Shown here piece after piece: positions 1 through 18,941 of a stretch of DNA of 20,755 bases (positions are counted from its first letter, which is position 1; every line of letters begins with the position of its first letter). The notes below the pieces were generated by a model. The model ran no database searches and was not told the origin of the DNA. It worked only from the letters and a program-made list of their open reading frames with translations. This DNA is from a virus. Position numbers and translations under genes: made by a program. The stretch covers positions 1-20,755 of the IMG/VR virus record IMGVR_UViG_3300050134_000024; one strand, given 5' to 3'.

Positions 1-588
1 ACTCGCCAGCGGCGTGCCTTTATTGTCGCGTTCGAACTGCCCCGGCGGCGCGGCCCCCAGCTGCGTCTCTTTCGCCCGAACCTGATCGCGCGCGTTGCGA
101 TAATCTTTGGCCCTGGCCTCATCGGTCATTTCCTTCGGCCGCTCCATCAGCATCATACCCTCTCGCAGAATCGTCTCGCCAGTATAGTTGGCTGGCATCA
201 GTTCCGGATGCCGTTTGCGTGGTACTGCTTCCCAGAACTTTCGAGCCAGATTGACGGCGTACGACGGGTCTTCTTTTCCCAGAATCGTGTGGGTGCGCCA
301 CTCGTACGACCAACCGTCTGGAATGATACGCGGGTCGATGTAGAACTTGTCCGTGCCTTCATCGAGCGACCCATGCTCACGCGCCTCGAGCATTCGCCGC
401 GCAGCGCGGGCGCGCGGGTCTTCCTCGCGCGTATCAGCGGCTTTGGCAGTGCTAGCGGTAGTAGTAGTAGATTCCGGATCATGCGCGACGCCAGCAAGCG
501 TTTCCGAAACTGCGGCGCTCACACCAGCATTTGGCAATGGCGCGTGCGGACCCGGACGGCGCTGCGGGATCGGTGTTTCAGTGCTCAT
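1..588 (-). CDS. Conserved phage structural-module protein, partial (C-terminus beyond left edge)
   Basis: The frame opens at an ATG at 588-586 and stays open for 196 codons to the window edge, so the C-terminus is missing. The start overlaps the stop of the scaffold-like gene as ATGA, which supports translational coupling. The N-terminal 60 residues are Pro/Ala/Thr-rich and look disordered. They are followed by a compact part with the stretch GWSYEWRTHTILGKEDPSY, and then by WEAVPRKRHPELMP. I have the impression that phage proteins with a Trp-rich core of this kind occur near portal and scaffold genes, but I cannot name a function. Its place in the head operon suggests a virion or head-assembly protein; this is inference. 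Codon use and GC match the neighbours. Confidence 0.75.
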   Translation of the reverse strand, partial: MSTETPIPQRRPGPHAPLPNAGVSAAVSETLAGVAHDPESTTTTASTAKAADTREEDPRARAARRMLEAREHGSLDEGTDKFYIDPRIIPDGWSYEWRTHTILGKEDPSYAVNLARKFWEAVPRKRHPELMPANYTGETILREGMMLMERPKEMTDEARAKDYRNARDQVRAKETQLGAAPPGQFERDNKGTPLAS

Positions 589-1568
589 TGCGGTGGCCTC
601 TTGCGCTCTTCGGGCGTCATGTTGTTCGCATATTTTTGAAACGCTTCAATGTCGGTTTTGCACTCTGGGAACATATTTTTTGCCATTTCCTGTTGCAGTG
701 GCCCAAGCGTTGCAGCCCCTGGTCGCTTTCCACTCGCGCCATTTCCGCTCCGACTGACTGGAGCGGCGGCCGGCGCGCTGCTGCGCCCTCCAGTTGGGCG
801 AGCGGCAGCGTCCGCCATTGGCGTTTCTGGATCATCGGCGTGTGGGGGCACAACAATTGCGGGCGCAGTAAGATCCAGCGTCTTTTCAATCGACGCGAAA
901 TAGCCGTCCGTATCGGCCTGATTGCCGCGGGCTACAGCGAGTTCGTGAGCAGCCATCATCTGGCGCTGTTTGTGTGGATCGCGCACGAACTCCGGGTGCG
1001 CGCGAATCCATTCCTGACTGCGCGGAAATTTCGGGCCGATGCTGGCCACCCACTGCTCGACTGGGTCTGCCGGGGCGCGCGCCGTGGGCTTCGGCGCGTT
1101 TTCGAGGCGGTTCTTGTGTGCCTCCATCTGCGCGAGCGCGGCGGATTTCGTAGACATCTCGCGCTGCGCCTTCGCAGCAGCCTTAAAGTCCTGCGCTGCC
1201 ATCGCATCAGCGTATTGGTTCTCCAGAACGTCGATCTGCTGGGTGGTCTGATCGATTGCACCCTTGATGAGGTCCAATTGACTGGTCTGAACCTCACCGC
1301 GGGCGCGCGCCTCGGCCTGCGCTGACTCATTGGCGCGCGCTTCGGCCGCAATGCGTGCATTGCGCTCGTTTTCTAGCTGTTTTTTGAGCTTATCAACACC
1401 GGCTTCTGGCGTTAGGACCGGTGCATCGCCGTTTTTTGATGCCAAATCAGCATCGACAACGACCGTGGGCTCGGAATCTGCGCCATTGGGCTTGTCGGTC
1501 GGTTTTTTGCCCGCAGCAGCATCGAGAGCGTCGATGTCGAGGGTGATTTCGTCGGTGGGAGTGCTCAT
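585..1568 (-). CDS. Probable scaffolding-like head-assembly protein
   Basis: About 327 residues, acidic and Ala-rich. From roughly residue 55 to 150 there is a long predicted coiled coil starting at VDKLKKQLENERNARIAAEA. A conserved-looking block follows (QEWIRAHPEFVRDPHKQRQM, then MMAAHELAVARGNQADTDGY), then a Pro/Ala-rich linker and a charged C-terminus. Length, coiled coil, and position downstream of a P22-type portal fit a scaffolding protein, which would shape the procapsid and then leave. That role is inferred from organisation, since there is no catalytic motif. A TTG at 1577 is in frame, but the ATG at 1568-1566 is the better start. It lies just after the stop of the GroES-like gene. 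The stop overlaps the next gene as ATGA. Confidence 0.7.
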   Translation of the reverse strand: MSTPTDEITLDIDALDAAAGKKPTDKPNGADSEPTVVVDADLASKNGDAPVLTPEAGVDKLKKQLENERNARIAAEARANESAQAEARARGEVQTSQLDLIKGAIDQTTQQIDVLENQYADAMAAQDFKAAAKAQREMSTKSAALAQMEAHKNRLENAPKPTARAPADPVEQWVASIGPKFPRSQEWIRAHPEFVRDPHKQRQMMAAHELAVARGNQADTDGYFASIEKTLDLTAPAIVVPPHADDPETPMADAAARPTGGRSSAPAAAPVSRSGNGASGKRPGAATLGPLQQEMAKNMFPECKTDIEAFQKYANNMTPEERKRPPQ

Positions 1569-1570
1569 GG

Positions 1571-2005
1571 CTACCAAATCATCCCTGGCTGAGGTACGCG
1601 CATTCGAATTTGATCATCGTAAACGAGCCGACAGGGCACAAAATCTTCCAAACTCAGCGCTCGCGGGTCGCTATTGATGTCCAGCGTCCACGTGTCTGAG
1701 GCTCGCACAACTACCCAGTCGTGCAATTGGATATCCAGGCCGTAATGCACGCCTGCATGGTCATCGTGGCGCACGAATTTGCACGCTTCACCGATCTTGA
1801 CGACCAGCCCGACCTTGCCCTGGTATCGATCTTCCTTGCGATTGTTGTGCGTGAGCACGATACCGCCGGCGGTTTTTTCCGGACGCATGTAAATCGCGAG
1901 CAAAACCTCGTTCTGCGCGATCTCCACATGCGATAAATCGCCGAGTTTATCGAGGATTTCGCGCTTCGGATCATATTCTGCTGGCTTGATGGCTGTGGCT
2001 GGCAT
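1571..2005 (-). CDS. Phage GroES-like co-chaperonin (Cpn10 fold)
   Basis: About 144 residues. Residues 33-65 follow the GroES pattern: an N-terminal strand (NEVLLAIYMRPEK), then TAGGIVLT at 45-52, which corresponds to the SAGGIVLT mobile loop whose hydrophobic tripeptide docks on GroEL, then a strand like the GroES ones that follow (YQGKVGLVVKIG). The second half (HDWVVVRASD) resembles the later GroES barrel strands. The protein is longer than a bacterial GroES (about 97 residues), with extra N- and C-terminal segments. It probably helps the host GroEL fold capsid protein, as T4 gp31 does; this is inference. An ATG at 2011 overlaps the previous stop but touches AGGA directly. The ATG at 2005 has AGGA six bases upstream, so I chose it. 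Confidence 0.72.
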   Translation of the reverse strand: MPATAIKPAEYDPKREILDKLGDLSHVEIAQNEVLLAIYMRPEKTAGGIVLTHNNRKEDRYQGKVGLVVKIGEACKFVRHDDHAGVHYGLDIQLHDWVVVRASDTWTLDINSDPRALSLEDFVPCRLVYDDQIRMRVPQPGMIW

Positions 2006-2007
2006 CG

Positions 2008-2214
2008 TCATTCCTGGTTGAGTTTGGTTTCTACTTCGCCGCAGTATTGATCGACGACGGCGTTGAGCATGGTGAGCCGACCGACATAGTTTTGATACTG
2101 AGCGTAGTCCTTCACGGCCATGCCGAGAGCAAGTTCAAGCGTCAACTTTTCGATTTCTTGAGTCAGACGTTTTTTCAGCTCGATCTCGAATCGGCTGCTA
2201 CCGGCGCTAAGCAT
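2008..2214 (-). CDS. Small helical protein of the head module
   Basis: A 68-residue protein, almost wholly predicted alpha-helical, with heptad-like Leu and Ile spacing (FEIELKKRLTQEIEKLTLEL). It contains one Cys and no recognised domain. It starts at the ATG 2214-2212, 12 bases after the stop of the GG-rich protein, without a strong ribosome site. Its TGA overlaps an ATG of the GroES-like gene as ATGA. Conserved position among head genes suggests a minor assembly or structural role, but nothing in the sequence defines it. Confidence 0.65.
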   Translation of the reverse strand: MLSAGSSRFEIELKKRLTQEIEKLTLELALGMAVKDYAQYQNYVGRLTMLNAVVDQYCGEVETKLNQE

Positions 2215-2226
2215 GCCGCGCGCCGG

Positions 2227-3252
2227 TTAGCCCCGCGCCGCGCGCTCAGCCTTCTCCAGTCGCCCAAGTCCGCCCCCTGCGCCAGCATCAATCGGATACG
2301 CACCTGGCTTTGCGAGTTTGCCGTCGTTGGCGCGTCCGCCAGTTGCTCGCTGCATCAGCGGTCCAGCTGGTGGGATGGCCTGTGCGCCCGGGGGCGGCAT
2401 CGGCGCGGTTCCTGCGGGAGGCATGCCCTGACCCATCCCCACCGGCGGCGCTCCCGGTGGCCGTATACCCGCAGGTGGCATCGGCATCGCCGGCTTCGGC
2501 TGTGGCTGCGTGATGATGATGTTGACGTTAGTGCCTTTTTTGGCGCGACCGCCGCCTTTGCGTGCGAGTCGACCAGCAACCGGCCGCGTGCCGTCGTTGA
2601 TCGCGCCGCCGCCTTTCTTGCCGACACGCCCACCGCCGCACTTCGCACAGGCGCAGCTCGGACCGTGAACCTTGCCGCCGTCCTTGCGCATCATGACGCC
2701 GGGTCGAATCCCGGGACGCTGCGGCGCGCCGGCCATTCCCGGACGCGCCACGCGCGGATCCGTGGCTGGCGGAATCGTCGCGCGCTGCTGCAGCCCCATG
2801 CGATCCTGCGGGCTCATCGCGCCGCCGATCATCTTGCCGATGCGGCCGCCAGACTTGCGCGACACGGCATCAGCCCAGTTCGGGAGCGCCAGACCACCCA
2901 TGTCCTTGTGAGCGCGGCCGCCTTTTTTGAAGCCGCCGACGTGTTTGGTGCCGTCGCGTTGCTCATTGGCTGCCTTGACGTCGCGGTTGATCAGGGAGTC
3001 GGCCGTGAGGGCGCGGCCGCCGTTGGCGCGTGGTTTGCGATCGGCGCGGGCAGGAGCGGATTCGCCGGCAACTTTGCCACCGCGTTTGAATTGGCGGCGA
3101 GAGATGGGGCGTTCGCCGGTCTGCACTCCCGCGTCCATCGGGCCGTCTGGGGCGTAGTTTGATGCGTCGACGCGCGCGTGAGGGTCGGAGCGAACGAGGC
3201 GTTCGACCTTTGACTTAGCCTTAGAGCGGGCTTCCTCGGACATTGTGCTCAT
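2227..3252 (-). CDS. Basic Gly/Lys-rich protein with repeated KxGG motifs
   Basis: A 341-residue, strongly basic, low-complexity protein. Short motifs of the type KRGGKV, KKGGRAH, RKSGGRIGK, RKDGGKVHG, KKGGGAI and RKGGGRAKK recur through its length. They are separated by Pro/Gly/Met-rich spacers, the longest being near residues 260-320 (PMPPAGIRPPGAPPVGMG). Around residue 215 a CACAKC cluster could bind metal. The start ATG at 3252-3250 has GAGG about eight bases upstream; a second in-frame ATG lies three codons later. I recognise the style of a phage head-module protein rich in GGK/GGR motifs but know no function. DNA binding inside the capsid is one guess from the charge. Confidence 0.68.
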   Translation of the reverse strand: MSTMSEEARSKAKSKVERLVRSDPHARVDASNYAPDGPMDAGVQTGERPISRRQFKRGGKVAGESAPARADRKPRANGGRALTADSLINRDVKAANEQRDGTKHVGGFKKGGRAHKDMGGLALPNWADAVSRKSGGRIGKMIGGAMSPQDRMGLQQRATIPPATDPRVARPGMAGAPQRPGIRPGVMMRKDGGKVHGPSCACAKCGGGRVGKKGGGAINDGTRPVAGRLARKGGGRAKKGTNVNIIITQPQPKPAMPMPPAGIRPPGAPPVGMGQGMPPAGTAPMPPPGAQAIPPAGPLMQRATGGRANDGKLAKPGAYPIDAGAGGGLGRLEKAERAARG

Positions 3253-3265
3253 GCGGGCCTCGCGA

Positions 3266-3709
3266 TCATTGTGCCGCCGAATCTACGCCGTTGGTGTCGT
3301 TTGGGAAATCCTGCTGGGCGCGGGGTGAGTTTGGGATTCTTGACGGATAGGCCGTCAGCCGAGAATACACGGCGAATAATGGAAACTCGCGAGGTGGTTT
3401 ACCCACGCCTGAAATTTCAGGCTCTATTCGCCAGACGACATGGCGATTTTCGCCTAGATAACCAAGCAACACTCTCTGATATTCGGCCTTGGCTTGCTCG
3501 ACAGTCCGCGCATATGTCACCGGTTGGTGGTGTGTGATGGCCGAATATGGAACCGGCCCGAAGAGCAGCAATTCAACGTAATCGTTTCCGAACTGATCAT
3601 ACCGCATCGGCGGTCCGGTCTCCCATGTAACGCCGTGACTCGTCAGGAACGCCTGAATCCACGCTTGGTCTGTGTCTTCGAAAATCTCCGGCGCAGCTCT
3701 AGACTTCAC
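3266..3709 (-). CDS. Hypothetical protein coupled to portal
   Basis: The longest frame starts at an ATG at 3727, but the ribosome site decides otherwise: GGAGG at 3720-3716 lies six bases before a GTG at 3709-3707. That GTG overlaps the portal stop as GTGA, giving a 147-residue protein beginning VKSRAAPEIFEDTDQAW. The middle is soluble and Tyr-rich (YVELLLFGPVPYSAITHH, then ARTVEQAKAEYQRVLLGYLG), and the C-terminus is polar. No domain was recognised. It sits between portal and the GG-rich protein in one transcription unit, so a structural or connector role is possible but unproven. Confidence 0.68.
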   Translation of the reverse strand: MKSRAAPEIFEDTDQAWIQAFLTSHGVTWETGPPMRYDQFGNDYVELLLFGPVPYSAITHHQPVTYARTVEQAKAEYQRVLLGYLGENRHVVWRIEPEISGVGKPPREFPLFAVYSRLTAYPSRIPNSPRAQQDFPNDTNGVDSAAQ

Positions 3710-6111
3710 TCCACACCTCCCAGCCATTTATTAATCGTTCCCATAATTCCCGTGGCCTTGCGCCCCGCGCTGGACGCATCCTTGGGGTCTTGGATGACTT
3801 CTTTGGCGAGCCCTATCGCCGCATCACGCTCGCGCGCCACGCGGTCCTGATCTCGATTCTGATTTTCCGTCGCCTGATCCTGCGCCTTCAATCCGACTTC
3901 GCGCTCGCGGGTATGGGCGTCGAGTAACTTCGCCTGCGCGCTCGCGATATCGAGCACCGACTCCGGCGGCTCTGCAGGCGCGCCAGCAGCGACGCCTTCC
4001 TGCTTTGGCGCGAACGCCCCCTGGGATGCCTTCGCTTGAACCTCGGCGGCCCTTGCGTTCGCCTCCGTAGCGCGCGCGCTGGCCTCCGTGGTTTTCGCAT
4101 CTGCGGCGGCTTTTTCGTTGGCCATCGTCGCCTGCATCTGCACCAGTTGTGGAGGCGGATTTGCGCGAGCCGCAGGCGGCACGAAGAATTCTTCCGGATT
4201 ACTCCACCCCATCGCGGCAAGTGCGGCCGTATGGATTTTGATCGGATCATATAGCGTTGGCGCCTGACCCTGCAGCTGCATGAGGCCCATAATCTTGAGC
4301 ATCCGCTGGCCGCTCGAACTGGTGTTCGGATCGGCCTGAGGCACCAGATCACAATTATCCAGTGCAGCTAAAAACTTCTGCTTGTCCCAAACCGTCTTTG
4401 ACTTGCAACCGCGGCAGTAAAATGATTCCGGATCCTCGCGAAACAGCTGTTTGAGCAGCTGAAATTCCTCGGCCTGCGCGCTGTGCATGCGCTTGTGGAC
4501 GGCGTTCATGACTTTGATCGCCTGATCGATCATCGCCATCACCGTACCAACCGGCACATCGGCGCGACCCTCGCCGACCTGAACCTCAGCGGTGCCGCCA
4601 ATGCGCCGCCCGGTCTCGGCCATGTTCTCGACCAGCGCCATCAGCGCCGCCATGCCCTGCGTCGAGTACGGCAGCGGCATCACGGCGTCCCGAATCGGCT
4701 GCCCATTGGTCTTGATCGGCGCGCCGCCTCCTGGGGGCACGCGGAAAATGTTGGTGTTCTGCCGCCCTCCGCCATCGGCCATCAAAAACCCCGGAAAATT
4801 CGCGAACATGCCGCAGTCGAGCATCTCGCGCCAAGCTGCGGTCACCGCATTGGTGGTGTTGCCCAGGATATGCACGAGCCCGATGTCGTAGAAGCCAAGG
4901 CCGGGGACGAACGGGTATTTGACGAATCGTTTGCGCGCTATCGGCAGCGGGTCGTCGTTCTCTCCAAAGTTACGCACTACCGCGAGCGTCTCGCGCGAGG
5001 ACTTATCGATCGTGACGACGTACGGAACCGCAAGCCCTGATGCCTTCTTATTGTGTTGATGCTCGAAACCTGCAATATCAAGCTCGCAATAGGTCTCGTA
5101 AATCTCGCGCTCACGATCCTCGGGGCGCAGCATGCCGCTGACGGTGATGCCCTGCTGTGCTCGCTCCTCCTCCTTCAGCGAATCGGACTGCGGCGTCACG
5201 GCATCACCGAGCGTGATATCGCGATAGACCCCCAGTATCTGCATGCGCCTGACGGTCGAGGGCTTCATCATCGAGCGGTGTGTGACACGCTGGGCATTCG
5301 CCAGATCGGTCGCGGAATTGTTGACGATCAGGTCATCGGCATCCACAGACTCAGAGACCGGGCGATTTCGCAGCGGGCACTTGTAGACTTTCTTGAAGCC
5401 GTCGCCGCCGAAGCCGGCCATCAGCAGCATGCGATCGGTGTCCGGGTAATACTCGGTCGCCACTGCGGTCAAGTAGTGGTTCATGTCCTGCTCAAGAGCA
5501 TTCGCCAACTGATCGCTATCGATGCCGGGTGAAGTCGAATCGTTTTTGATCTTGACCGGCCCATCCGTCGGCAGGAATTCGCTGCGTGCGTTAGCGTTGA
5601 ATCGCACCACGGCTTCGAGTAGCAGAGGGTGGCGTACCTTGCTCATGCCCTCCACCGGCGCCCCGTCACTCGCGCCCTGAACGTTCGGCAGTTCGATTTT
5701 AAGCCCCAGCAGCTTTATTCCCAGCGCGCGATCCTTGATCCATTCATCGCGCGAGTCGAGGTCTTCTTGGACTCCGCGCAAGAGATCCTCAGTGATCCTG
5801 GATAATTCGTCCTTGTCGATGCGTTCGGCGAGATTGTCGAACCATTCAGCCGGTTTGGCAGGCTCAGCGGGTCCACCCAGCGGCTTGCCGTCGAGCGAGA
5901 CTGTGACCGAACCGTCGCCGTGATCGATGCGGACGATGTTATTTTTGCCGTCGATGACTGGAGCGTCATCGCTATTCGCGATCTCGACTTGGACGTCGGC
6001 AGCTTCGGGTTGCGCTGGGTCTGAGGGAGGCACCAGGCGCAGGGATTGGTTGGGGGCTAGTCCTGCCATAGTCTCGCCATGAGCCACCGCTGCTGCCGAA
6101 TCCGCCGCCAC
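3706..6111 (-). CDS. Portal protein, P22-like family
   Basis: About 800 residues, the usual large size of P22-type portals, which form the dodecameric ring for DNA entry at one capsid vertex and bind the terminase. Recognisable parts are a middle domain with YPFVPGLGFYDIGLVHILG and a helical AAWREMLDCGMFANFPGF segment, then a long stretch with RRIGGTAEVQVGEGRADVPV. The last 150 residues are Ala/Glu/Gln-rich and likely coiled coil, reminiscent of the P22 portal barrel. A CRGC pair sits near residue 580. The frame begins with a GTG at 6111. An ATG fourteen codons later (6069-6067), after GGCGAG, may be the true start. The order terminase, portal, scaffold supports the call. Confidence 0.88.
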   Translation of the reverse strand: MAADSAAAVAHGETMAGLAPNQSLRLVPPSDPAQPEAADVQVEIANSDDAPVIDGKNNIVRIDHGDGSVTVSLDGKPLGGPAEPAKPAEWFDNLAERIDKDELSRITEDLLRGVQEDLDSRDEWIKDRALGIKLLGLKIELPNVQGASDGAPVEGMSKVRHPLLLEAVVRFNANARSEFLPTDGPVKIKNDSTSPGIDSDQLANALEQDMNHYLTAVATEYYPDTDRMLLMAGFGGDGFKKVYKCPLRNRPVSESVDADDLIVNNSATDLANAQRVTHRSMMKPSTVRRMQILGVYRDITLGDAVTPQSDSLKEEERAQQGITVSGMLRPEDREREIYETYCELDIAGFEHQHNKKASGLAVPYVVTIDKSSRETLAVVRNFGENDDPLPIARKRFVKYPFVPGLGFYDIGLVHILGNTTNAVTAAWREMLDCGMFANFPGFLMADGGGRQNTNIFRVPPGGGAPIKTNGQPIRDAVMPLPYSTQGMAALMALVENMAETGRRIGGTAEVQVGEGRADVPVGTVMAMIDQAIKVMNAVHKRMHSAQAEEFQLLKQLFREDPESFYCRGCKSKTVWDKQKFLAALDNCDLVPQADPNTSSSGQRMLKIMGLMQLQGQAPTLYDPIKIHTAALAAMGWSNPEEFFVPPAARANPPPQLVQMQATMANEKAAADAKTTEASARATEANARAAEVQAKASQGAFAPKQEGVAAGAPAEPPESVLDIASAQAKLLDAHTREREVGLKAQDQATENQNRDQDRVARERDAAIGLAKEVIQDPKDASSAGRKATGIMGTINKWLGGVE

Positions 6112-6147
6112 TCGTCCGCGTTCAACTCAATCCGATATCGCGGCCAG

Positions 6148-6408
6148 TCACCCATCGAGTTTCGCCCTCGGCGCCAGCGGCGCCACCTCATTTCGAATCA
6201 CCGCAGGCATGAATTCCTTGACGAATAACTGTAGTGCGCATGCTGCGGCCTCGTCATCGGTAGGCGCCGCAATCTTGTATTGCCGGATAAACGCATGCGG
6301 CGGCTCGCCGCGAACCGTCACCAGAAAATTGTACGGCCTGAACACGCGCGACAGCAGATCGACCGTGCACGTACACCTCGGCGCGGCATTCTGCGGCGAG
6401 AGGATCAT
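6148..6408 (-). CDS. Small hypothetical protein coupled to membrane peptide
   Basis: An open frame extends up to a GTG at 6576, but its first part overlaps the terminase end and a small membrane-peptide gene. The most economical start is the ATG at 6408-6406, which overlaps the stop of that peptide as ATGA. This gives 86 residues starting MILSPQNAAPRCTCTVDLL. The visible features are a CTC motif near the start, a basic and hydrophobic middle (RPYNFLVTVRGEPPHAF), and an Ala-rich helix (DDEAAACALQLFVKEFM). No known domain was recognised. It lies between large terminase and portal in the packaging operon. Confidence 0.55.
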   Translation of the reverse strand: MILSPQNAAPRCTCTVDLLSRVFRPYNFLVTVRGEPPHAFIRQYKIAAPTDDEAAACALQLFVKEFMPAVIRNEVAPLAPRAKLDG

Positions 6409-6473
6409 CGCTTCCAATCGGCCAGCAGCGTGTAGGTCGACCAGATCGCTATCGCTAGGAAAAACCAGGACAT
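6405..6473 (-). CDS. 22-residue single-span membrane peptide
   Basis: ATG at 6473-6471 is preceded by AGAGGA at 6483-6478, spacing four to five bases. The 22 codons encode MSWFFLAIAIWSTYTLL followed by a short polar tail ADWKR. This is one hydrophobic span with a basic end, and its TGA overlaps the next ATG as ATGA. A good ribosome site, coherent hydrophobicity and coupling to the next frame support expression. Against it, the stretch is short and could be chance within a longer overlapping frame. The function is unknown; its position right after the large terminase is notable. Confidence 0.42.
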   Translation of the reverse strand: MSWFFLAIAIWSTYTLLADWKR

Positions 6474-6544
6474 CGGATCCTCTTCGGGCCAGTACGCGGC
6501 CAATCATACCGCAAGTAAGAGCAGAAACCCTAGCGGTTGTCAAG

Positions 6545-8245
6545 CTAGACGGCGTACAAAGGCTCCTCGCGACCACGATATTGGCGGTCCTCTTCTACCT
6601 CGGCCTCGCGTTCTGCTTGGCGAACCAGCAACCCCATATCTCGAAGTTTGCGCAGCCCCATTGAGATCAAGTCGACAAATTCATCGTGTGCGGCGCGGGG
6701 AAACATCGCCGCTTGAACTATGACTTGATCCATCCAGGGACGTTCCGGGGCATAGATAATGCCTTCAGCGAATAGGTGCTGGACGCTGTACAGGCGTGCC
6801 ATTTTGTCCTGGCTTTTGGGATCGAACAATTCGACTCCAAATTTTTCGCGACTATACAGGCGCTGAATTTCTTGCGCGACCGAAATACCAGAAGCCTTGT
6901 TCTCAATCAGAAGCGTGTCAACTTTCATCTTGACGCAGGTCTTAGCGACCTTCTCTACCAGTTCGTGGAACTCCAAATGCTCGGTCCATGCCCACATGGC
7001 CATGACATGCGGCGCGAACTCCGAGTACGTCGAACTAGGGATCATCAACTCGCCATTCGGCCCCACGATGCGCGTGGTCTGCGCGTTAACGTCACCAGAA
7101 AATATTCCCCACACGATCATACCGCTCGGATCATTTTCCTGATTCGAGGTAAACGCGCTATCGAGACACGCTAAAATAAAATCCATGGGCGGAAACGAAT
7201 CTGGCTCCCATAATTTCCAAAAATCTCGCTTGATTATTCCGCCGCCTTTTGGCTCAGGCCGTTGTTGCAACTGGCCACATGCGCGCCATGGTCCCATCCA
7301 CGACTCAAGGCCTTTGACTTCTTCTTCGCCAAATCGCTCCGGCCAGAGCAGCTCGCCCTCGGCGTTTCTCGGATCACTCCAGCCAATCGGAGACACGTAA
7401 CTTTTGCGCCACGCCTCGAAACGCATCGGTAATACTAGCGTCGTCCATTCGCCTTTGTTTCTCGAAAGTAAATGCCCCGTGATGTCGCGTTCGCCAAGGC
7501 GCTGCTGGATATTAATGATCGCGCCTAGCTTTTGATTGTTTAAGCGCGTCCCCAACGTTCCTTCGAGCCAGTCGATAGTTCCATCAATAACAGCTTCCGA
7601 CTCAACCTCCCGCGCAGAATTTCCGTCATCGATCAAAATTACGTTTGAGCCGTCTCCAGTTGCACCCTTCGAGTCAATCGAAGTTATTAGCCGATAGCCC
7701 CCTTTGTCGTTGACGAACCTTTCCTTGGTATTTTGATCCACCTCTAAGGAGAACCTGTCGCCCCACTTTTGCGAATACCATTTCGACTCTATGACTTTGC
7801 GGCAGTGACGCGAGTCACGCAGAGACAGGCTGTCTTTGAACGATGCGTACAGAAATGAAACGCCTGGACCGCTTGTATGCGAAATATTTTGTTGAGCCCA
7901 GACCCACGCTGGTAGGGCGACTGAGCAAAGGCTAGATTTTTGGCAACGCGGCGGAATATTTATAATAAGCCGCTTGATCTGGCCATCGATAACAGCTTGC
8001 AAGTGCTCGGCGATTGCCTCAACGCACCAGCCCTCTACCCAAGGCGCGGAATCGAAGATGCGCCACGCTGAGCGCAGGAATAGGTAAAGCGAATCCTCGC
8101 AATCGGCGCGGTCGATGTCCGCGAGCTGCGCATCGACATCGACGCTGCGGGGATCGAATTCTTGGGGGTTGAAACTCACGCCGACAGTTTCTCGAAACCT
8201 CGTCGCCGATTCAACCGATTTATCAGCAGTCGAGACTGCGGGCAC
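6545..8245 (-). CDS. Terminase large subunit (packaging ATPase-nuclease)
   Basis: About 566 residues. The N-terminal ATPase shows a Walker A-like stretch RLIINIPPRCQKSS near residue 92-105 (families usually have PPRHGKS). It also has Walker B VILIDD near 202-207 followed by the expected acidic region, and an IINIQQRLGERDITGHLL segment typical of the coupling motif. The C-terminal RNase H-like nuclease shows ACLDSAF (first Asp), TLLIENKASG (Glu) and HDEFVDLISMGLRKLRD (last Asp). The enzyme translocates phage DNA through the portal and cuts it. The longest frame starts at TTG 8248, but that touches AGGGA. The GTG at 8245-8243 has AGGGA three bases upstream, so I chose it. Confidence 0.92.
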   Translation of the reverse strand: MPAVSTADKSVESATRFRETVGVSFNPQEFDPRSVDVDAQLADIDRADCEDSLYLFLRSAWRIFDSAPWVEGWCVEAIAEHLQAVIDGQIKRLIINIPPRCQKSSLCSVALPAWVWAQQNISHTSGPGVSFLYASFKDSLSLRDSRHCRKVIESKWYSQKWGDRFSLEVDQNTKERFVNDKGGYRLITSIDSKGATGDGSNVILIDDGNSAREVESEAVIDGTIDWLEGTLGTRLNNQKLGAIINIQQRLGERDITGHLLSRNKGEWTTLVLPMRFEAWRKSYVSPIGWSDPRNAEGELLWPERFGEEEVKGLESWMGPWRACGQLQQRPEPKGGGIIKRDFWKLWEPDSFPPMDFILACLDSAFTSNQENDPSGMIVWGIFSGDVNAQTTRIVGPNGELMIPSSTYSEFAPHVMAMWAWTEHLEFHELVEKVAKTCVKMKVDTLLIENKASGISVAQEIQRLYSREKFGVELFDPKSQDKMARLYSVQHLFAEGIIYAPERPWMDQVIVQAAMFPRAAHDEFVDLISMGLRKLRDMGLLVRQAEREAEVEEDRQYRGREEPLYAV

Positions 8246-8258
8246 CAATCCCTGTTAT

Positions 8259-8579
8259 TTACGCCGCACTCGGCGGAATCGGACCCGCGTAACCTGCATC
8301 ATCCATATTGAGCCGCTCGTTGAGCGCGGTCACGCCGCGCGAGAGCCAGCCCGCCAACTCAAGGCAACTCGAACGCTCACCCGCGCCACGCACCGCGACA
8401 TGACCGGTTGGGTAGCCGATCACCAGCACGACGGTCTTGACGGTCGGAATCTTCTCCAGTTGATCAGCCCACTCGCGTAGCTTGGCTGGACCGTCGATAA
8501 AGCTAACGCGCTTGATCTCGCGGAGGTTCCGGGCCTTAGTACCAATCAGCGCAAGATCGCCCGGAACGTCCACTTCCAC
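8259..8579 (-). CDS. Hypothetical protein between terminase subunits
   Basis: A 106-residue soluble protein starting at GTG 8579-8577, two bases after the previous stop; another GTG lies two codons later. Alternating hydrophobic stretches (TVKTVVLVIGYPTGHVAV) and an amphipathic helix (CLELAGWLSRGVTALNERL) suggest a small alpha/beta fold. No motif was recognised. It is co-transcribed with the packaging genes and lies directly upstream of the large terminase. Confidence 0.62.
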   Translation of the reverse strand: MEVDVPGDLALIGTKARNLREIKRVSFIDGPAKLREWADQLEKIPTVKTVVLVIGYPTGHVAVRGAGERSSCLELAGWLSRGVTALNERLNMDDAGYAGPIPPSAA

Positions 8580-8581
8580 GA

Positions 8582-9016
8582 TTACACCGTCAACTGCGGA
8601 TTACTCCCCACCCTACGTCCATCGCCACACTCGAGAAACCATTCGTGAGTGCGAAGAGACTGCTCGACGCGGACACGGCTGACGATGTAATCCTTTGGGC
8701 AATACTGAAGCGCGAGAGCGCCGATATTATCCTCCCAGTAGATTTGCGACACCCATAGATCACAACTCACGCCGTTCGGTTTGAGTTGCTCAACGGCCCA
8801 CGCGAGCGATGCGGCGCACAGGTCGGCACTGATTGGCAGCGTGTCGTACTGAATTGTTCCGGGCGGCAGCACTGGGCGCTCGGGAACTTCGATGTCGATG
8901 GTTTCCAGTGAGTCCGGGCTCAAGTCGATGGATACTGGATGCGCTGTACTGCTCAGCGCTACGCCATCACCGCCAGCCTTCGCGTTGCGCGTCATCGCTT
9001 TGTTTAGCAGGTTCAT
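8582..9016 (-). CDS. Hypothetical protein of packaging operon
   Basis: A 144-residue protein with an ATG at 9016-9014 that overlaps the preceding TGA as ATGA. The N-terminal 50 residues are polar. The rest has a Trp-rich pattern (LCAASLAWAVEQLKPNGVSC, then DLWVSQIYWEDN) with four cysteines overall, and ends in a polar strand region (THEWFLECGDGRR). No family was recognised. Tight coupling within the packaging operon shows it belongs to the phage. Confidence 0.65.
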   Translation of the reverse strand: MNLLNKAMTRNAKAGGDGVALSSTAHPVSIDLSPDSLETIDIEVPERPVLPPGTIQYDTLPISADLCAASLAWAVEQLKPNGVSCDLWVSQIYWEDNIGALALQYCPKDYIVSRVRVEQSLRTHEWFLECGDGRRVGSNPQLTV

Positions 9017-9267
9017 GTCGCTTCCGGCACACCGAGACCGTTCAGATAATCAGTCAGATTATGCAATGTATCCTTCCTCACTAATGGCCTATCGGCAGGT
9101 ATAACGATCCACGCCACAGCTTTCTCTGCGGGCGTAAATCCAGGGCCCATGATTCTGATTTCCGCAACGAGCGTCTCCTCGACAGTCTGGTTAGCTATCT
9201 CCAGCGCCTGCCCGATGCTGTTGTAGGCGAAAACAGTGACTATCGGTATGCGCAGTTCGGTCGCCAT
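9013..9267 (-). CDS. Small hypothetical protein after small terminase
   Basis: An 84-residue protein. The ATG at 9267-9265 has GGGGAG about five bases upstream, and it overlaps the small-terminase TAA as TAATG. The N-terminal half alternates strand-forming residues (ELRIPIVTVFAYNSIGQAL), followed by VEETLVAEIRIMG. A short C-terminal helix ends in Gly/Pro. No domain was recognised. The strong ribosome site and the overlaps on both sides support a real gene. Confidence 0.65.
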   Translation of the reverse strand: MATELRIPIVTVFAYNSIGQALEIANQTVEETLVAEIRIMGPGFTPAEKAVAWIVIPADRPLVRKDTLHNLTDYLNGLGVPEAT

Positions 9268-9995
9268 TATTGCTCCCCCTCCACGCCGCCCTCAATCAAC
9301 GGCACCACGCCAGTGCCCACCATCTCACCCTCTACCGGCCGGAGCAACGCTCGCTCGAGCACACCACGCATCAGCTGGCGGTCCTGCCAGGACATCTTAC
9401 TGGAGTCAATCAAATTACCCTTACCACTGCGATCATCCGTGACCTCCAGTTTCTGCGCAGGCGCTCGCCACTCCTCCCCGCCGCGGCGGTTCATCACTTC
9501 GACCGCAGCTTTCACCGCAACGCGATCGTTCGTAGAGGTCGCGATGCGCAGCAGATTCGCCGAGACCTGCGATACCACCTCGGCCGATCCGACCGCGTAT
9601 TCGTTGCCGTAATATAAACCCAAGTCGGCCTCGCTCATCTCCAGCAGCACGGCCACCACATCGCGCGGTATGCCCAGAGCTCCGAACGCCTTGGCCTGGC
9701 GCGCGAATGTCGCAGACGGGTGCTTGCCATCTGTGGCAAGCAGTTCGCGGCGCGCCGATCCCGTGCGCTCGATCTCAGCCATCTGATCGCGCCACCACTG
9801 GGCGAGCAGCACGCGGTCATCGGTCGGGCGCCGGGGAGCCGCCATGCCGCCTATGTTGATCTCTGCCAGCGCCTGTCTCGCACTCGCCCGCAGCGTTGCG
9901 TTACGGCTGGCATCATTCATCGTCGCCAGCAGCGCCTGAGCCCGCTCGGCTTCCTCGGCGGCGCGTTGGGCGCGGGCTTTAGGACGGCCGGCCAT
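9267..9995 (-). CDS. Terminase small subunit-like protein
   Basis: A 242-residue protein starting at ATG 9995-9993, with a basic, Ala-rich N-terminus (MAGRPKARAQRAAEEAERAQ). Residues 105-130 match the DNA-recognition HTH of many small terminases: ALGIPRDVVAVLLEMSEADL followed by GLYYGNEY, where families usually have GI...LGIS..TLRKHY..EL. The segment after it (VSANLLRIATSTNDRVAVKA, ending in RRGGEEWRAP) matches the helical oligomerisation part that usually ends in a Gly-Trp-Arg stretch. It would bind the packaging start site and deliver DNA to the large subunit. It is the first gene of the packaging block after a non-coding stretch with palindromes and G-runs. Confidence 0.75.
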   Translation of the reverse strand: MAGRPKARAQRAAEEAERAQALLATMNDASRNATLRASARQALAEINIGGMAAPRRPTDDRVLLAQWWRDQMAEIERTGSARRELLATDGKHPSATFARQAKAFGALGIPRDVVAVLLEMSEADLGLYYGNEYAVGSAEVVSQVSANLLRIATSTNDRVAVKAAVEVMNRRGGEEWRAPAQKLEVTDDRSGKGNLIDSSKMSWQDRQLMRGVLERALLRPVEGEMVGTGVVPLIEGGVEGEQ

Positions 9996-13855: not shown

Positions 13856-14629
13856 ATGACCGACGAAGCAGAAACCGAACCGACCTGGTTCACCGACTCC
13901 AAAGGCAACCGCTGTAACGATAAATATTTCGGCTCCGCCGAAGCTGCGCAGGAAGCATTGATCTCGCTTAAAGATTGCGAGAACTGTGAAAACTGCTCGC
14001 GCTGCTCGGACTGCTCGGACTGCTCGCGCTGCTCGGGCTGCTCGGGCTGCTCGCGCTGCTCGGACTGCTCGGACTGCTCGGACTGCTCGCGCTGCTCGGA
14101 CTGCTCGGACTGCTCGCGCTGCTCTGGCTGCTCGGACTGCTCGCGCTGCTTGCGCTGCTCGGACTGCTCGCGCTGCTCGCGCTGCTTGCGCTGCTCGGAC
14201 TGCTCGCGCTGCTCTGGCTGCTCGGACTGCTCGCGCTGCTCGGGCTGCTCGCGCTGCTCGCATATCGCAAATCTATGGGATAAAAAAGGCCTCGTCGCTC
14301 AGCCAGTCGCTGGCGAGATCGGAGCGCCACCAGTTCCGCGCGTGGAAAATATCCACCAGAAAATTTTCGAGGCGGTCTCAATGCCGGGAGCGCTCGACAT
14401 GGGAACTTGGCACAAATGCGAGAAAACCCACTGCCGCGCCGGATGGATCGTCACGCTCGCAGGTGAGGCCGGTCGCAGGCTGGAGCGATTCCACAACACC
14501 GAACTGGCCGCAATGCTGATCTATTACGAGAGCGGCTACCACATCAATCCGGCACGCTTCTACGACAATAACGACCGCGCTCTGGCCGACATGAAGCGGC
14601 TGGCCGAAGAGTCGGCTGTCGCGCAGTAA
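13856..14629 (+). CDS. Cys-triplet repeat protein with conserved C-terminal domain
   Basis: A 257-residue protein with ATG at 13856 after TGGAG. Residues 1-40 form a polar head (WFTDSKGNRCNDKYFGSAEA). From Cys41 to Cys134 a cysteine occurs at every third position, 32 in a row, mostly as C-S-R, C-S-D or C-S-G. The C-terminal 120 residues form a separate domain with PVPRVENIHQKIFEAVS, then GTWHKCEKTHCRAGWIVTLA, then a Tyr-rich end. I have the impression that similar C-terminal domains occur in phage and bacterial proteins with DC.NC-type Cys repeats, but no function is known to me. The DNA is a 9-bp tandem array with alternating units, so length variation is likely. It is the first plus-strand gene. 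Confidence 0.78.
   Translation: MTDEAETEPTWFTDSKGNRCNDKYFGSAEAAQEALISLKDCENCENCSRCSDCSDCSRCSGCSGCSRCSDCSDCSDCSRCSDCSDCSRCSGCSDCSRCLRCSDCSRCSRCLRCSDCSRCSGCSDCSRCSGCSRCSHIANLWDKKGLVAQPVAGEIGAPPVPRVENIHQKIFEAVSMPGALDMGTWHKCEKTHCRAGWIVTLAGEAGRRLERFHNTELAAMLIYYESGYHINPARFYDNNDRALADMKRLAEESAVAQ
13976..14263 (+). repeat. 9-bp tandem repeat array encoding Cys-Ser-X
   Basis: About 30 units of TGCTCGxxC (GGAC, GCGC and GGGC variants, rarely CTGGC or TTGCG) follow two TGCGAGAAC-like starter units. Larger blocks recur, such as a run near 14107-14160 that reappears near 14187-14240, indicating segmental duplication by slippage or unequal exchange. Other frames and the opposite strand stay open through the array only because the unit has no stop. 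Confidence 0.9.
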
Positions 14630-14658: not shown

Positions 14659-14973
14659 ATGGCAAAGTCCTCAATCGCCCCGTTAACCGGCGCTGCCGTG
14701 CCCAAAACCCGCAAAGCCCGCGCAACCTCCCCGCGCCACTATCTAGTGATCCTCCACGGCAGCGACGGCCCGATGCTGGTGCTGGCCAAGACGCAGGCCG
14801 CAGCTCTGGATGCCGTGTGCAAGATTGGCGCGGCGAGCGATTCCGACCTGATCGCGGCTGGAAAGAGCGGCTGGGTGATCGTGGATACGCTGACCGATCC
14901 GAGGCAGTTGCGGGTGGATGATAAGGCGGCAAATGGGGCACAGACGGATGCGGCTGGGGCTGCGGCGCTGTGA
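14659..14973 (+). CDS. Hypothetical phage protein upstream of exonuclease
   Basis: A 104-residue protein, ATG at 14659 with GGAG ten bases upstream. A basic head (VPKTRKARATSPRHY) leads into a strand-helix-strand core (YLVILHGSDGPMLVLAKTQA, then GWVIVDTLTDPRQL). The C-terminus is Ala-rich and polar. This resembles small phage early proteins, but no domain was recognised. Its TGA overlaps the next GTG as GTGA, so it is coupled to the exonuclease gene. Confidence 0.68.
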   Translation: MAKSSIAPLTGAAVPKTRKARATSPRHYLVILHGSDGPMLVLAKTQAAALDAVCKIGAASDSDLIAAGKSGWVIVDTLTDPRQLRVDDKAANGAQTDAAGAAAL

Positions 14974-15833
14974 ATTCGGCCCCGCCAGCCATCCGGATAG
15001 AGTCGCGAGTGCCGCGCGCCGACTACGATGCTATCCATGGCGTGAGCATTACGCGTTTGAAAGAACTGCGGCGCTCGCCTCAGCACTATCAATACTCACT
15101 GACGCACCCGAAGACCTCCAACCCTCTGCGCCTTGGCATCGCTGCCCACATCGCCGTGCTGGAGCCGGATCGCTTCGCCGCCGAGTTTTCAGTGTGGGAG
15201 CGCACCACGGATGCTGGCGCGATGGCACCTCGCCGTGGGCAACATTGGGACGCCTTTTGCGAATCGCATCGCGGCCGCAAGATTCTGACGCCGGACGAAT
15301 GGTTCCTGTGCGAGCAGATCGCGGCCGCGGTGCATCGGGATGAACTGGCGATGAAGTATCTGGGCAGCGGCGACCCGGAGGTGACGTTACTGTGGCAGAC
15401 AGCCGAGCGCCAGTGCAAGGGCCGCGCCGATTGGATGACGACGCTCGAGGGCAAGCCGTACATCGTCGGGCTCAAGACGGCGCGCGATTGCCGCCCGTGG
15501 ATATTCGGTTCGCAGTGCGCGAAGCTGGCCTATCACCTACAGTTCGCTTTTTACGCCGATGGCTACGAGGCGATTACCGGGATACGGCCGGCGCTCGTTG
15601 AGATCGTGGTCGAGTCGTCCGCGCCCCACGCCGTCGCCGTGTACAAAATACCTGACGACGTGTTGGACCAGGGGCGCGAGGAATATGCTCACCTGTTGGA
15701 AGTGCTCGCGGAATGCGAACGCGACGATTCGTGGCCAGGGCCAGTCCCGCGCGAGGAATATTTGTCGTTGCCGACCTGGGCCTACGGCAGCGCTGACGAT
15801 GATGTGGAAGCACTCGGACTCGTAGGAGAATGA
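14970..15833 (+). CDS. RecE-like PDDEXK exonuclease family protein with altered active site
   Basis: A 287-residue protein starting at GTG 14970, overlapping the previous stop as GTGA. The motif order fits the RecE-type C-terminal nuclease family (PDDEXK, DUF3799): SITRLKELRRSPQHYQ at 26-41, LRLGIAAHIAVLEP with His60, CKGRADWM with Asp154, YIVGLKTARD at 164-173, and YHLQFAFYADGY with Gln191. Families normally carry IVDLKTT, with the Asp as a metal ligand; here it is Gly167 (codon GGG), while Lys169 stays. If family rules hold, cleavage may be weak or lost. The enzyme normally chews a 5' strand to start single-strand annealing recombination. An OB-like protein follows. Confidence 0.82.
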   Translation: MNSAPPAIRIESRVPRADYDAIHGVSITRLKELRRSPQHYQYSLTHPKTSNPLRLGIAAHIAVLEPDRFAAEFSVWERTTDAGAMAPRRGQHWDAFCESHRGRKILTPDEWFLCEQIAAAVHRDELAMKYLGSGDPEVTLLWQTAERQCKGRADWMTTLEGKPYIVGLKTARDCRPWIFGSQCAKLAYHLQFAFYADGYEAITGIRPALVEIVVESSAPHAVAVYKIPDDVLDQGREEYAHLLEVLAECERDDSWPGPVPREEYLSLPTWAYGSADDDVEALGLVGE

Positions 15834-16275: not shown

Positions 16276-16688
16276 GCGCCGTGACTGCGCCAAACGAGCA
16301 GTTGTTGGCTGACATCGCGCGTAGCGCAATGCTGGCGATTGCCGAACCTCGGGACGACGCCGACGTGCTGCGCGCCTTCGTTCGAGCCTGTCGCCGCGCC
16401 GAGCATGAGGGCTATATGCGCGGCAATGCGGATGCGATGCGGATCATCCTGGGAGACGTACCCAGAGCGAATGATCTGGAGCCGCCATTCACCGCCGCCG
16501 AGATCGCGCAGGCTGGTGATGAGTCGAACCGAGAGAATGGCCGCCTGATCGCCGCCGCGCCGGATCTGCTGGTGGCGCTGCGCACCGTGCTCGCACAGAT
16601 ACAATCCAGACCGGAAGCGGCGATTGCGTTCCCGGACGATGACCTACTTCCCATCCACACCGCCATTGCCAAAGCCGAGGGAAAATGA
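16272..16688 (+). CDS. Phage protein with NGRLIAAAPDLL motif
   Basis: A longer frame opens upstream at 16146, but the ATG at 16272 overlaps the previous stop as ATGA and gives 138 residues. The C-terminal half shows the very common phage motif NGRLIAAAPDLLVALRTVL followed later by AIAKAEGK. The N-terminal half is helical (NEQLLADIARSAMLAIAEP). Proteins with this motif are widespread in tailed phages, usually among early genes, and have no known function. It is coupled on both sides. Confidence 0.7.
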   Translation: MSAVTAPNEQLLADIARSAMLAIAEPRDDADVLRAFVRACRRAEHEGYMRGNADAMRIILGDVPRANDLEPPFTAAEIAQAGDESNRENGRLIAAAPDLLVALRTVLAQIQSRPEAAIAFPDDDLLPIHTAIAKAEGK

Positions 16689-16948
16689 AAATCGCCCAAT
16701 ACAAATCCGTCGAGCACGGCTATCTGAGTATTTGCGATGCTGAGACATTCGACCGCGTACCCGAATACATCCGAGTCAGCGAGCATGTCGAGGTCGAGTT
16801 TCCAGCGTTACCGCCCGAGGATCTGGTAGCACAGGAAGTGGAAGCGCTCGACAAGGTGCGCGCCAACGTGGTCGAGGAATTCTGCGACAAGCTAGCGATC
16901 ATCGATCGCCGCAAGTCCGAACTGCTCGCGCTCACGGTGCAGGCATGA
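16685..16948 (+). CDS. Small phage early protein with C-terminal coiled coil
   Basis: An 87-residue protein, ATG 16685, overlapping the previous stop as ATGA. It has a short N-terminal strand region, then YIRVSEHVEVEFPALPPED, a pattern I know from phage early proteins. A heptad-like helix follows (AQEVEALDKVRANVVEEFCD, then KLAIIDRRKSELLALT). The function is unknown. The helix suggests oligomerisation or a partner. The stop overlaps the start of the HAF-repeat gene. Confidence 0.68.
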   Translation: MKIAQYKSVEHGYLSICDAETFDRVPEYIRVSEHVEVEFPALPPEDLVAQEVEALDKVRANVVEEFCDKLAIIDRRKSELLALTVQA

Positions 16949-18159
16949 GCCCCCGCACCCTCCTTCTCGCCCTCTTCTCCAGCATCGCGCACGCCCAGCA
17001 ATACACGATGACCGAGTTGCTGTCGCCAGAATCAGGCTCAACTGGTACGGCCGTCTACGGCCTCAATAATACTGGGCAAGTGGTAGGGCAGGCTTATTTC
17101 GGCGACAACAGCTCAGCTATCCTGTGGAGCGCCGGCATCGGCACCGCACTTCAAGAAGTCAATTTGAACAGCGTTCCGATGGCCGTGAATGCTGGGGGTG
17201 TTGCAGCAGGTTTTGGTTTCGGCAGCAGCGATGCGCAAGCGCTGACTTGGGCGCAGGGCGTTGCCACCACTTTGAATAATCCTAATACCGGATTTGACAG
17301 CGACGCCGAAGCCCTCGCTATCAACGATTCCGGACAAGCGGTCGGCTACGTCAATAATTCGGCGACGCAGAGCAATTACGCCGTGACTTGGATAGCGGGT
17401 GGCGCTATGCCGCTAGCTTCCAATGGAGCGGATGTTAGCGAAGCCGAAGGAATCAACAACACCGGGCTCATCGTAGGGTACGGTCTTTCAAACAGCACTG
17501 GCTTGGAGACTGCGATCGTTTGGGGCAATGGCGCCGCCGTTAATTTAAACTCCCTCGGAGGCACCCAAACCGAAGCGCTGGCGGTCAATGATGCTGGGGA
17601 GATTGTGGGTTGGTCTGATCTATCTCCAGGCGACACCACTACGCATGCCGTGAGTTGGACCTCGGGCCTCTTAACAGATCTCGGCACCCTAGGCGGCAGC
17701 GTGAGTGAGGCGCTGAGCATTAACGCATCAGGGCAGATCGTCGGTTACTCAAACGTTGGGGGAGATCCGGTCGACGCCTTGGGTAACGTTATTACTCACG
17801 CCGTGATCTGGAACGCTGGAGTTTTGGTGGATCTCAATACTGAGATTGATCCGGCCGTTGCGCTCTACGTTACGCTGACGAGCGCGAGCGGCATCAACGA
17901 CAGCGGACAGATAGCAGTGAACGGCATCGATACTCGCGAGCAGTATCCGACTGCTTATCTCATGACTCCCGTCGTGGCGCAGCTTTCCACGCCGGCAGTC
18001 GCGCCGACACCCACGCCCGCAGCCACGGCTGTTACCGCTGCCGTTGCTGCGGCTCCAGCTAAGTCTGGAGGCGGGGGCGCGTTGGACTGGCTATCGCTCG
18101 CTATACTTCTCGCCGTAGCCGCGCGCAAATTTCTACTTTTGGAGGGTTACATCGAATGA
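16945..18159 (+). CDS. Secreted HAF-repeat protein with GlyGly-CTERM-like anchor
   Basis: A 404-residue protein starting at ATG 16945 with ATGA overlaps at both ends. Residues 1-17 are a signal peptide (MSPRTLLLALFSSIAHA, cut before QQ). Residues 35-335 contain seven HAF-type repeats, with units of the form INDSGQAVGY...AVTWIAGG and a LGTLGGSVSEALSINASGQI copy. These form a beta-propeller-like surface module. A Thr/Pro/Ala linker follows. The last 31 residues are SGGGGALDWLSLAILLAVAA then RKFLLLEGYIE, a Gly-rich motif plus one span plus Arg-Lys, as in rhombosortase substrates. The terminal basic cluster is weaker than usual. A surface protein in a phage early operon suggests altered host surface or superinfection exclusion; this is inference. 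Confidence 0.8.
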   Translation: MSPRTLLLALFSSIAHAQQYTMTELLSPESGSTGTAVYGLNNTGQVVGQAYFGDNSSAILWSAGIGTALQEVNLNSVPMAVNAGGVAAGFGFGSSDAQALTWAQGVATTLNNPNTGFDSDAEALAINDSGQAVGYVNNSATQSNYAVTWIAGGAMPLASNGADVSEAEGINNTGLIVGYGLSNSTGLETAIVWGNGAAVNLNSLGGTQTEALAVNDAGEIVGWSDLSPGDTTTHAVSWTSGLLTDLGTLGGSVSEALSINASGQIVGYSNVGGDPVDALGNVITHAVIWNAGVLVDLNTEIDPAVALYVTLTSASGINDSGQIAVNGIDTREQYPTAYLMTPVVAQLSTPAVAPTPTPAATAVTAAVAAAPAKSGGGGALDWLSLAILLAVAARKFLLLEGYIE

Positions 18160-18383
18160 GCTACCCAATGACCGACCCAGACGTAATGCGAGACGACGCC
18201 ATAAAGGAATATCTCGACAGCATGTCCTTGGACACCGGCCATCAGATCGCTGGCTTCCAGAAGCTGTGCGATACGCTGGAGACCATCGGTGCAATACGCG
18301 AGCTGCGCAGATTGAATGCGAGGCCGTATCCGGTGCTGAGCGTGGCAGGCGAGCGACTGGAGGCGATGCAAAATGCAATCTGA
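18156..18383 (+). CDS. Small hypothetical protein after HAF gene
   Basis: A 75-residue, mostly helical protein. ATG 18156 overlaps the HAF stop as ATGA, with GGAGGG nine bases upstream. It contains LCDTLETIGAIRELRRLNAR and a PYPVLSVAGERLEAMQNAI end. No domain was recognised. Its ribosome site lies inside the HAF gene tail, so the two are co-expressed. Confidence 0.62.
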   Translation: MSYPMTDPDVMRDDAIKEYLDSMSLDTGHQIAGFQKLCDTLETIGAIRELRRLNARPYPVLSVAGERLEAMQNAI

Positions 18384-18780
18384 AGGATTGTTTGAGGCCG
18401 CTGTTGTCACCAGCCACACGCTGGTCTGCCCAGATGATGAGATCCCTCATTATCGCGGCAACTGCTTTTCCATCAAGACTGCCGACGAGCAGCACTTTCG
18501 GGTCGTGAACTTCAATTACGAAAATCTCGAGGAATTGCAGGCTGCGGGACTTAAGTTTCCCATCCAATGCCGCAAGCTCGGGGAAGGAACCGCTATCTTC
18601 CATGATCCTAGAATCGGTGAGCGCTGGTATTCGCGGCGATACTGTGAGGTGTGCTGCCCAGAGAGTCTGCTGCCAATCCCGCAGATTCAAAGCCATGAGC
18701 GCGATGTGATGCGAGGTGTCCGTAAGAAAGGCAACGGATGGATCCAAATCGACTTGCAAGCAAGGGCGGAATTTCCATGA
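18373..18780 (+). CDS. Cys-rich hypothetical protein
   Basis: A 135-residue protein. ATG 18373 overlaps the previous gene by 11 bases and follows GGAGG by about ten. The first half is strand-rich with TLVCPDDEIPHYRGNCFSI, and the second half has a CEVCCPE cluster (RRYCEVCCPESLLPIPQ). The six cysteines could bind zinc or form a redox site. There is no recognised family. Confidence 0.65.
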   Translation: MQSEGLFEAAVVTSHTLVCPDDEIPHYRGNCFSIKTADEQHFRVVNFNYENLEELQAAGLKFPIQCRKLGEGTAIFHDPRIGERWYSRRYCEVCCPESLLPIPQIQSHERDVMRGVRKKGNGWIQIDLQARAEFP

Positions 18781-18941
18781 ATGAACCTGAACGCTACCAT
18801 CCAGAAGTGCCGGACGATCCGTCAAGGACTGCCGACGAATTCACTCTGGAAAGCGACTTCCCGACGCCGGATGATTTTGAGCGGGCGTCGAGATTGAATG
18901 AACGGATCAACGACGAAGCCTTTTGGGAGTCATGGTTATGA
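18777..18941 (+). CDS. Small acidic hypothetical protein
   Basis: The longer frame starts at 18738, but the ATG at 18777 overlaps the previous TGA and gives 54 residues, acidic and Pro-rich at first (PEVPDDPSRTADEF), then helical with a C-terminal AFWESWL. GGCGGA is six bases upstream. No domain was recognised. Confidence 0.58.
   Translation: MNEPERYHPEVPDDPSRTADEFTLESDFPTPDDFERASRLNERINDEAFWESWL

Follow-up and report, generated by a model that had tools for sequence, protein, structure and literature searches.

The 20,755-base IMG/VR contig analysed here (hereafter the window) carries, within an early-type operon of a tailed phage, an accessory gene for a HAF-repeat protein with a predicted Sec-type signal peptide, a putative seven-bladed beta-propeller and a C-terminal tail of the GlyGly-CTERM type, by which the infected bacterium probably fastens the propeller to its own surface. 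From this architecture and setting we infer, tentatively and a little short of calling it probable, that a phage-borne, Sec-exported propeller anchored at the surface of the host would alter adsorption and serve in superinfection exclusion.

The phage and the setting of the HAF gene

The window encodes a SU10-type portal, a large terminase, a P4-type primase and an exonuclease VIII-like protein, and as a 20.8-kb record it is probably a fragment. Its structural genes form a cluster on the minus strand (585-9995), in which the region 1571-2011 weakly matches a phage GroES-like co-chaperonin (phrog_3188, E 1.3e-5); a GroES is also annotated in the structural region of MW202675. The latter is the closest GenBank phage record (portal 65% identical), and a 70-kb sister contig, G001, shares 86% identity in the portal and 74% in the exonuclease. 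A host search through relatives of the portal returned nothing beyond phages that were environmental or distant and plasmids from intracellular symbionts. No integrase was found in the 20.8-kb window or its closest sisters, and the only repressor-like genes in the window are small.

The HAF gene is a genuine gene with an intact 404-codon frame (16945-18159, plus strand). Its placement in an early phage operon, proposed in the first-pass annotation, is borne out by the exonuclease VIII-like recombination gene upstream in the same operon (14970-15833; phrog_412, 1.5e-58), which is followed by a conserved gene for a 146-aa phage protein (15835-16275; 67-86% identical in five phage contigs) and by the immediate upstream neighbour of the HAF gene (16685-16948; phrog_2479, with homologues in G001 and L078). 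On the downstream side lie a 75-aa gene (18156-18383), a 135-aa phage gene (18373-18780; phrog_23380, with homologues in two other viral contigs) and a 67-aa gene (18738-18941), all on the plus strand. The ATGA overlaps that had been noted on both sides of the HAF gene are exact, at 16945-16948 and 18156-18159. In the product of the first gene of the plus-strand operon (13856-14629), which matches phrog_15341 and phrog_31265, x-Cys-Ser triplets (DCSRCSGCS...) are repeated in tandem over about 100 residues; other low-complexity tandem-repeat proteins are encoded near the same operon in sister contigs, namely DALDARDARD (L077), GSAV repeats (L079) and AEAQRRYYAANKDRV (L081).

The HAF gene is accessory cargo. 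The exonuclease gene and the gene for the 146-aa protein occur as a pair in five contigs, none of which carries a HAF gene. In contig L078, the genes before (2213-2509) and after (3227-3394, 49% identical to the 67-aa gene of the window) the corresponding slot both align with the window, and small unrelated genes stand between them in place of the HAF gene, which identifies the latter as cargo in a variable slot. A fragment of a host chromosome or a chimera is ruled out by the phage homologues that flank the HAF gene on both sides. The earlier proposal of a moron holds as far as this accessory status is concerned. In the strict sense, a moron is a gene with its own promoter and terminator; a consensus scan revealed no promoter-like site upstream of the HAF gene, and this result, together with the coupling at both ends, indicates a gene that relies on the operon rather than an autonomous moron. 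The same gene in related prophages, which had been put forward as a check, was searched for and found in no relative.

The GC content of the HAF gene is 58%, against 59% for the phage, but no other of the long, correctly framed genes has so atypical a synonymous codon usage (the frame 16276-16685 is out of register, and its value was disregarded). No close homologue of the protein was found in 84,980 species genomes, where the search returned eight loci with distant HAF proteins from other phyla, or by protein search in IMG/VR. Likewise, 50,697 GenBank phage records contained no relative at E 1e-3, the matches up to E 10 being at chance level, and a consensus HAF query of the collection gave a single match, at a contig edge.

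The propeller and its C-terminal tail

The encoded protein scores 79.2 bits (E 1.6e-22) against TIGR02913 (HAF_rpt), above the curated cut-off of 22.65, which confirms it as a HAF-repeat protein. Among the viral HAF proteins that were compared it has diverged furthest (79 against 120-240 bits), and it lacks the literal His-Ala-Phe tripeptide. Its match to PF11949 (DUF3466; E 2.8e-5, 23.3 bits) lies under the Pfam gathering score of 25.1, and by its sequence the protein is best described as a DUF3466 relative that is not filed as a member. As the first-pass annotation had it, seven repeats are recognisable by eye, and the structural model described below fits seven blades, although a DNA-level TIGR02913 search scores only three of the repeats strongly, on their own or together with adjacent ones.

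The N-terminus, MSPRTLLLALFSSIAHA (16945-16995), ends in AHA and reads by inspection as a Sec-type signal peptide with a predicted cut before QQ. It is followed by the repeat region (residues 18-344; 16996-17976), a flexible linker rich in Pro, Ala and Thr (residues 345-373; 17977-18063; pLDDT mostly below 60), a GlyGly-CTERM segment composed of an SGGGG motif, a hydrophobic helix and an Arg-Lys pair (residues 374-395; 18064-18129), and an atypical nine-residue C-terminal extension, FLLLEGYIE (18130-18156). The signal peptide and the Pro/Ala linker had both been recognised previously, and both stand; besides the tail, inspection and the propeller model gave no further membrane segment. AlphaFold2, given seven sequences from the window and the loci, returned a model of the HAF protein with a mean pLDDT of 80.5 and a pTM of 0.78, in which residues from about 18 to 344 are all-beta and a low-confidence helix spans 380-400. 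Foldseek searches with this model returned propellers, and VIA-align gave a Z score of 29.5 for the propeller region of CylK, about 23 for the propeller of integrin alpha4 and about 20 for the WD40 protein G-beta. Thus, the protein is confidently modelled as a seven-bladed beta-propeller followed by a disordered linker and a C-terminal helix. A search for a solved HAF relative gave only a weak match to MtxA (E 0.039). Sharing a propeller fold gives no information on the ligand, and we know of no ligand for HAF propellers.

The rhombosortase-style tail that had been proposed passes the TIGR03501 (GlyGly_CTERM) cut-off just barely: residues 376-395 of 404 score 16.3 bits, only 0.8 bits above the cut-off of 15.5, and a single-record search gave E 1.2e-5 in the same frame as the gene. 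The glycine motif, which is followed by ALDWLSLAILLAVAA, the hydrophobic length, the aromatic residue W382 and the pair Arg394-Lys395 are all in register with the model, of which positions 1-20 out of 22 are matched. Positions 21-22 remain unmatched; the pair is followed by FLLLEGYIE with its two Glu residues, and the terminal basic cluster is missing. Within the DNA for this extension, GGAGGG at 18141-18146 provides the next gene with its ribosome-binding site, nine bases ahead of the start, so that the unusual end of the protein appears to be the result of fitting into the operon. Without a basic end, processing of the tail could be impaired or lost altogether. Removal of the last five residues of VesB from Vibrio cholerae lowered its surface retention (PMC6219818), and GlyGly-CTERM motifs show appreciable differences, yet are interchangeable (PMC13393428).

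As controls, the C-termini of eight HAF proteins were scanned, of which six pass the PEP-CTERM cut-off and none matches GlyGly-CTERM; PEP-CTERM models do not match the window protein. Scans of 21 further viral records, 20 of which were reached via genes of this phage, gave no GlyGly-CTERM, the window protein having the only such tail among the relatives scanned, and a hydropathy and glycine scan of the relatives found no signal-plus-tail protein of comparable type. Because the 22-position model also matches by chance in control genomes (with matches at E up to 1 in five of the 14, and above the cut-off in one), we consider the GlyGly-CTERM call good, but not certain. A rhombosortase gene (TIGR03902) was found neither in this phage nor in eight relatives. 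Moreover, the gammaproteobacterial host that the tail had seemed to imply is not supported, as GlyGly-CTERM is found in beta- and deltaproteobacteria as well (PMC3237569).

HAF proteins with PEP-CTERM tails in other phages

A scan of 2.9 million viral contigs with two DNA patterns for HAF motifs yielded HAF genes in a clear phage context from four IMG/VR phages, one myophage and three temperate ones. In the myophage (L064/G036), recognised by its tail sheath (1.6e-130), endolysin and head genes, the HAF gene lies among the structural genes on the opposite strand. In the three others (L061/G037, L133/G045 and L134/G046, with an integrase present in G045 and G046), it comes after a CI-like repressor, opposite a CII-like activator, which is the classic location of lysogenic-conversion genes. 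Like the window protein, all four are phage cargo and predicted secreted HAF propellers (TIGR02913, 120-240 bits) with a C-terminal sorting tag; unlike it, all four carry PEP-CTERM tails above the model cut-off, that is, a tag of the exosortase class, and three are encoded beside a CI/CII switch. Mutual identity among the four is 42-54%, and their identity to the window protein is about 30%.

At E 1e-5, the myophage shares no protein with the three temperate phages except the HAF protein, matches of PEP-CTERM tails aside. Bacterial plasmids encode homologues that match at up to 48% over 77% of the protein, and no HAF relative of the PEP-CTERM type is encoded in the GenBank phage records of the collection. 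The four proteins may go back to a host HAF clade acquired several times, and not to a phage family. That unrelated phages repeatedly acquire HAF propellers tagged for the host's own sorting enzyme, be it rhombosortase or exosortase, and that these constitute an undescribed class of surface-remodelling cargo that exploits the sorting machinery of the host, is a proposal to which we give nearly even weight. HAF matches for which a phage context is not established (G040, G043, G044, L093, L128, L100, L111 and L124) are kept outside this argument; two contigs classed as viral encode further HAF proteins, with a PEP-CTERM tail at L139:10373-12967 (G040) and a VPLPA-CTERM-like tail below the cut-off at L140:7551-8651 (G044).

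Genes for second PEP-CTERM proteins of surface type were observed alongside the HAF-PEP-CTERM genes at L137:10077-10826 (G046), where it directly follows the CI-like repressor, and at L061:9802-10386. In G046, the two PEP-CTERM genes of the presumed lysogeny operon are separated by a phrog_4225 endonuclease (L137:8974-10047), a possible defence gene.

Possible roles at the host surface

VesB of Vibrio cholerae is cut by rhombosortase at its glycines and acquires a glycerophosphoethanolamine-type adduct at the newly made terminus; it reaches the cell surface by type II secretion (PMC6219818). In the same manner, the HAF protein would be exported via Sec during infection or in the prophage state, whereupon a host rhombosortase would cut next to the glycines and transfer the protein onto a lipid of the ethanolamine type, and type II secretion would carry it to the cell surface. 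The GlyGly-CTERM tag is portable, and crossing of the outer membrane needs a separate secretion signal (PMC13393428). VesB, the substrate of the rhombosortase RssP (PMC6219818, PMC13393428), resembles the window protein in its succession of signal peptide, passenger, disordered linker, Gly motif, hydrophobic helix and basic residues, but differs from it in having a protease as passenger, a chromosomal gene, proven processing and a basic C-terminus. The architecture also has cellular precedent in a DUF3466 (PF11949) protein of Shewanella baltica (YP_001555110.1; PMC3237569), in which a HAF-type repeat region and GlyGly-CTERM are combined on one secreted protein. This is the product of a bacterial chromosome, whereas the window protein is phage-borne, has an atypical end and scores below the gathering score of the family.

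The displayed propeller might then bind a surface structure and alter the surface of the infected cell, the most likely effect being less adsorption of competing phages, or less loss of progeny to infected cells and debris. The case for such superinfection exclusion, which would include the shielding against other phages suggested in the first-pass annotation, is circumstantial and draws on the early-type operon, the lysogeny-module position of HAF genes in other phages and the precedent of Llp from phage T5, a phage envelope protein in exclusion (PMC9586334). Llp is likewise phage-encoded and envelope-anchored, and it provides a superinfection-exclusion model from a lytic phage. It differs from the window protein in that it is small, N-terminally lipidated and periplasmic, acts on FhuA and has no sequence relation to it; moreover, its function is proven, whereas we infer that of the window protein. 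As there is no integrase in the window or its closest sisters, the comparison with lysogenic phages may not carry over.

The main rival to superinfection exclusion, in our view unlikely but deserving attention, is that the surface propeller benefits the host, helping infected cells or lysogens to aggregate, adhere or grow as biofilm, and does not serve to exclude phages. HAF proteins with PEP-CTERM tails in soil betaproteobacteria and other bacteria would agree with such a role, as would the second PEP-CTERM protein gene beside the HAF gene in G046 and L061, and floc formation in Zoogloea requires PEP-CTERM proteins (PMC9012009). However, a role at the time of infection fits better with the place of the window gene, an early operon of recombination type in a lineage in whose close members no integrase was found. 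Somewhat less probable still is a degenerate sorting signal, in which case the protein would stay C-terminally membrane-anchored in the periplasm or be freed by a general rhomboid such as GlpG, which is able to cut VesB without rhombosortase (PMC6219818). The borderline profile score, the two unmatched model positions, the lack of a terminal basic cluster and the origin of the extension in the overlap with the next gene all point in this direction, but the remaining elements of the tail are in register with the model, and natural motifs vary while remaining interchangeable.

We consider it improbable that a host gene was captured recently as a transient passenger from which the phage gains nothing. 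The absence of the gene from all relatives and its atypical codon usage would suit this view; an intact frame, coupled translation on both sides, a built-in ribosome-binding site for the downstream gene and the lack of a close homologue among the bacterial genomes searched argue against a recent capture, and the independent appearance of HAF cargo in other phages speaks for selection. A virion or tail-associated structural protein is highly improbable, since, although beta-propellers are present among the phage proteins of the viral fold library, this one has a signal peptide and a C-terminal sorting tag and is encoded outside the structural cluster, in the plus-strand operon.

The recurrence of HAF propellers with different surface tags looks like a recurring viral route to changing the host coat, and, if surface display by the host is true, phages would redecorate infected cells via the host's surface-anchoring enzymes. 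Our literature search yielded no publication on phage genes whose products are tagged for rhombosortase or exosortase. On the same condition, HAF propellers, which are widespread and have no known function, would become testable through phage adsorption assays. Besides, the sister contig G001 encodes a 456-aa protein (L036:14-1384) with a Ser-rich linker and a glycoside hydrolase-like domain recognised by eye (NEPFGD motif), which is possibly a surface depolymerase.
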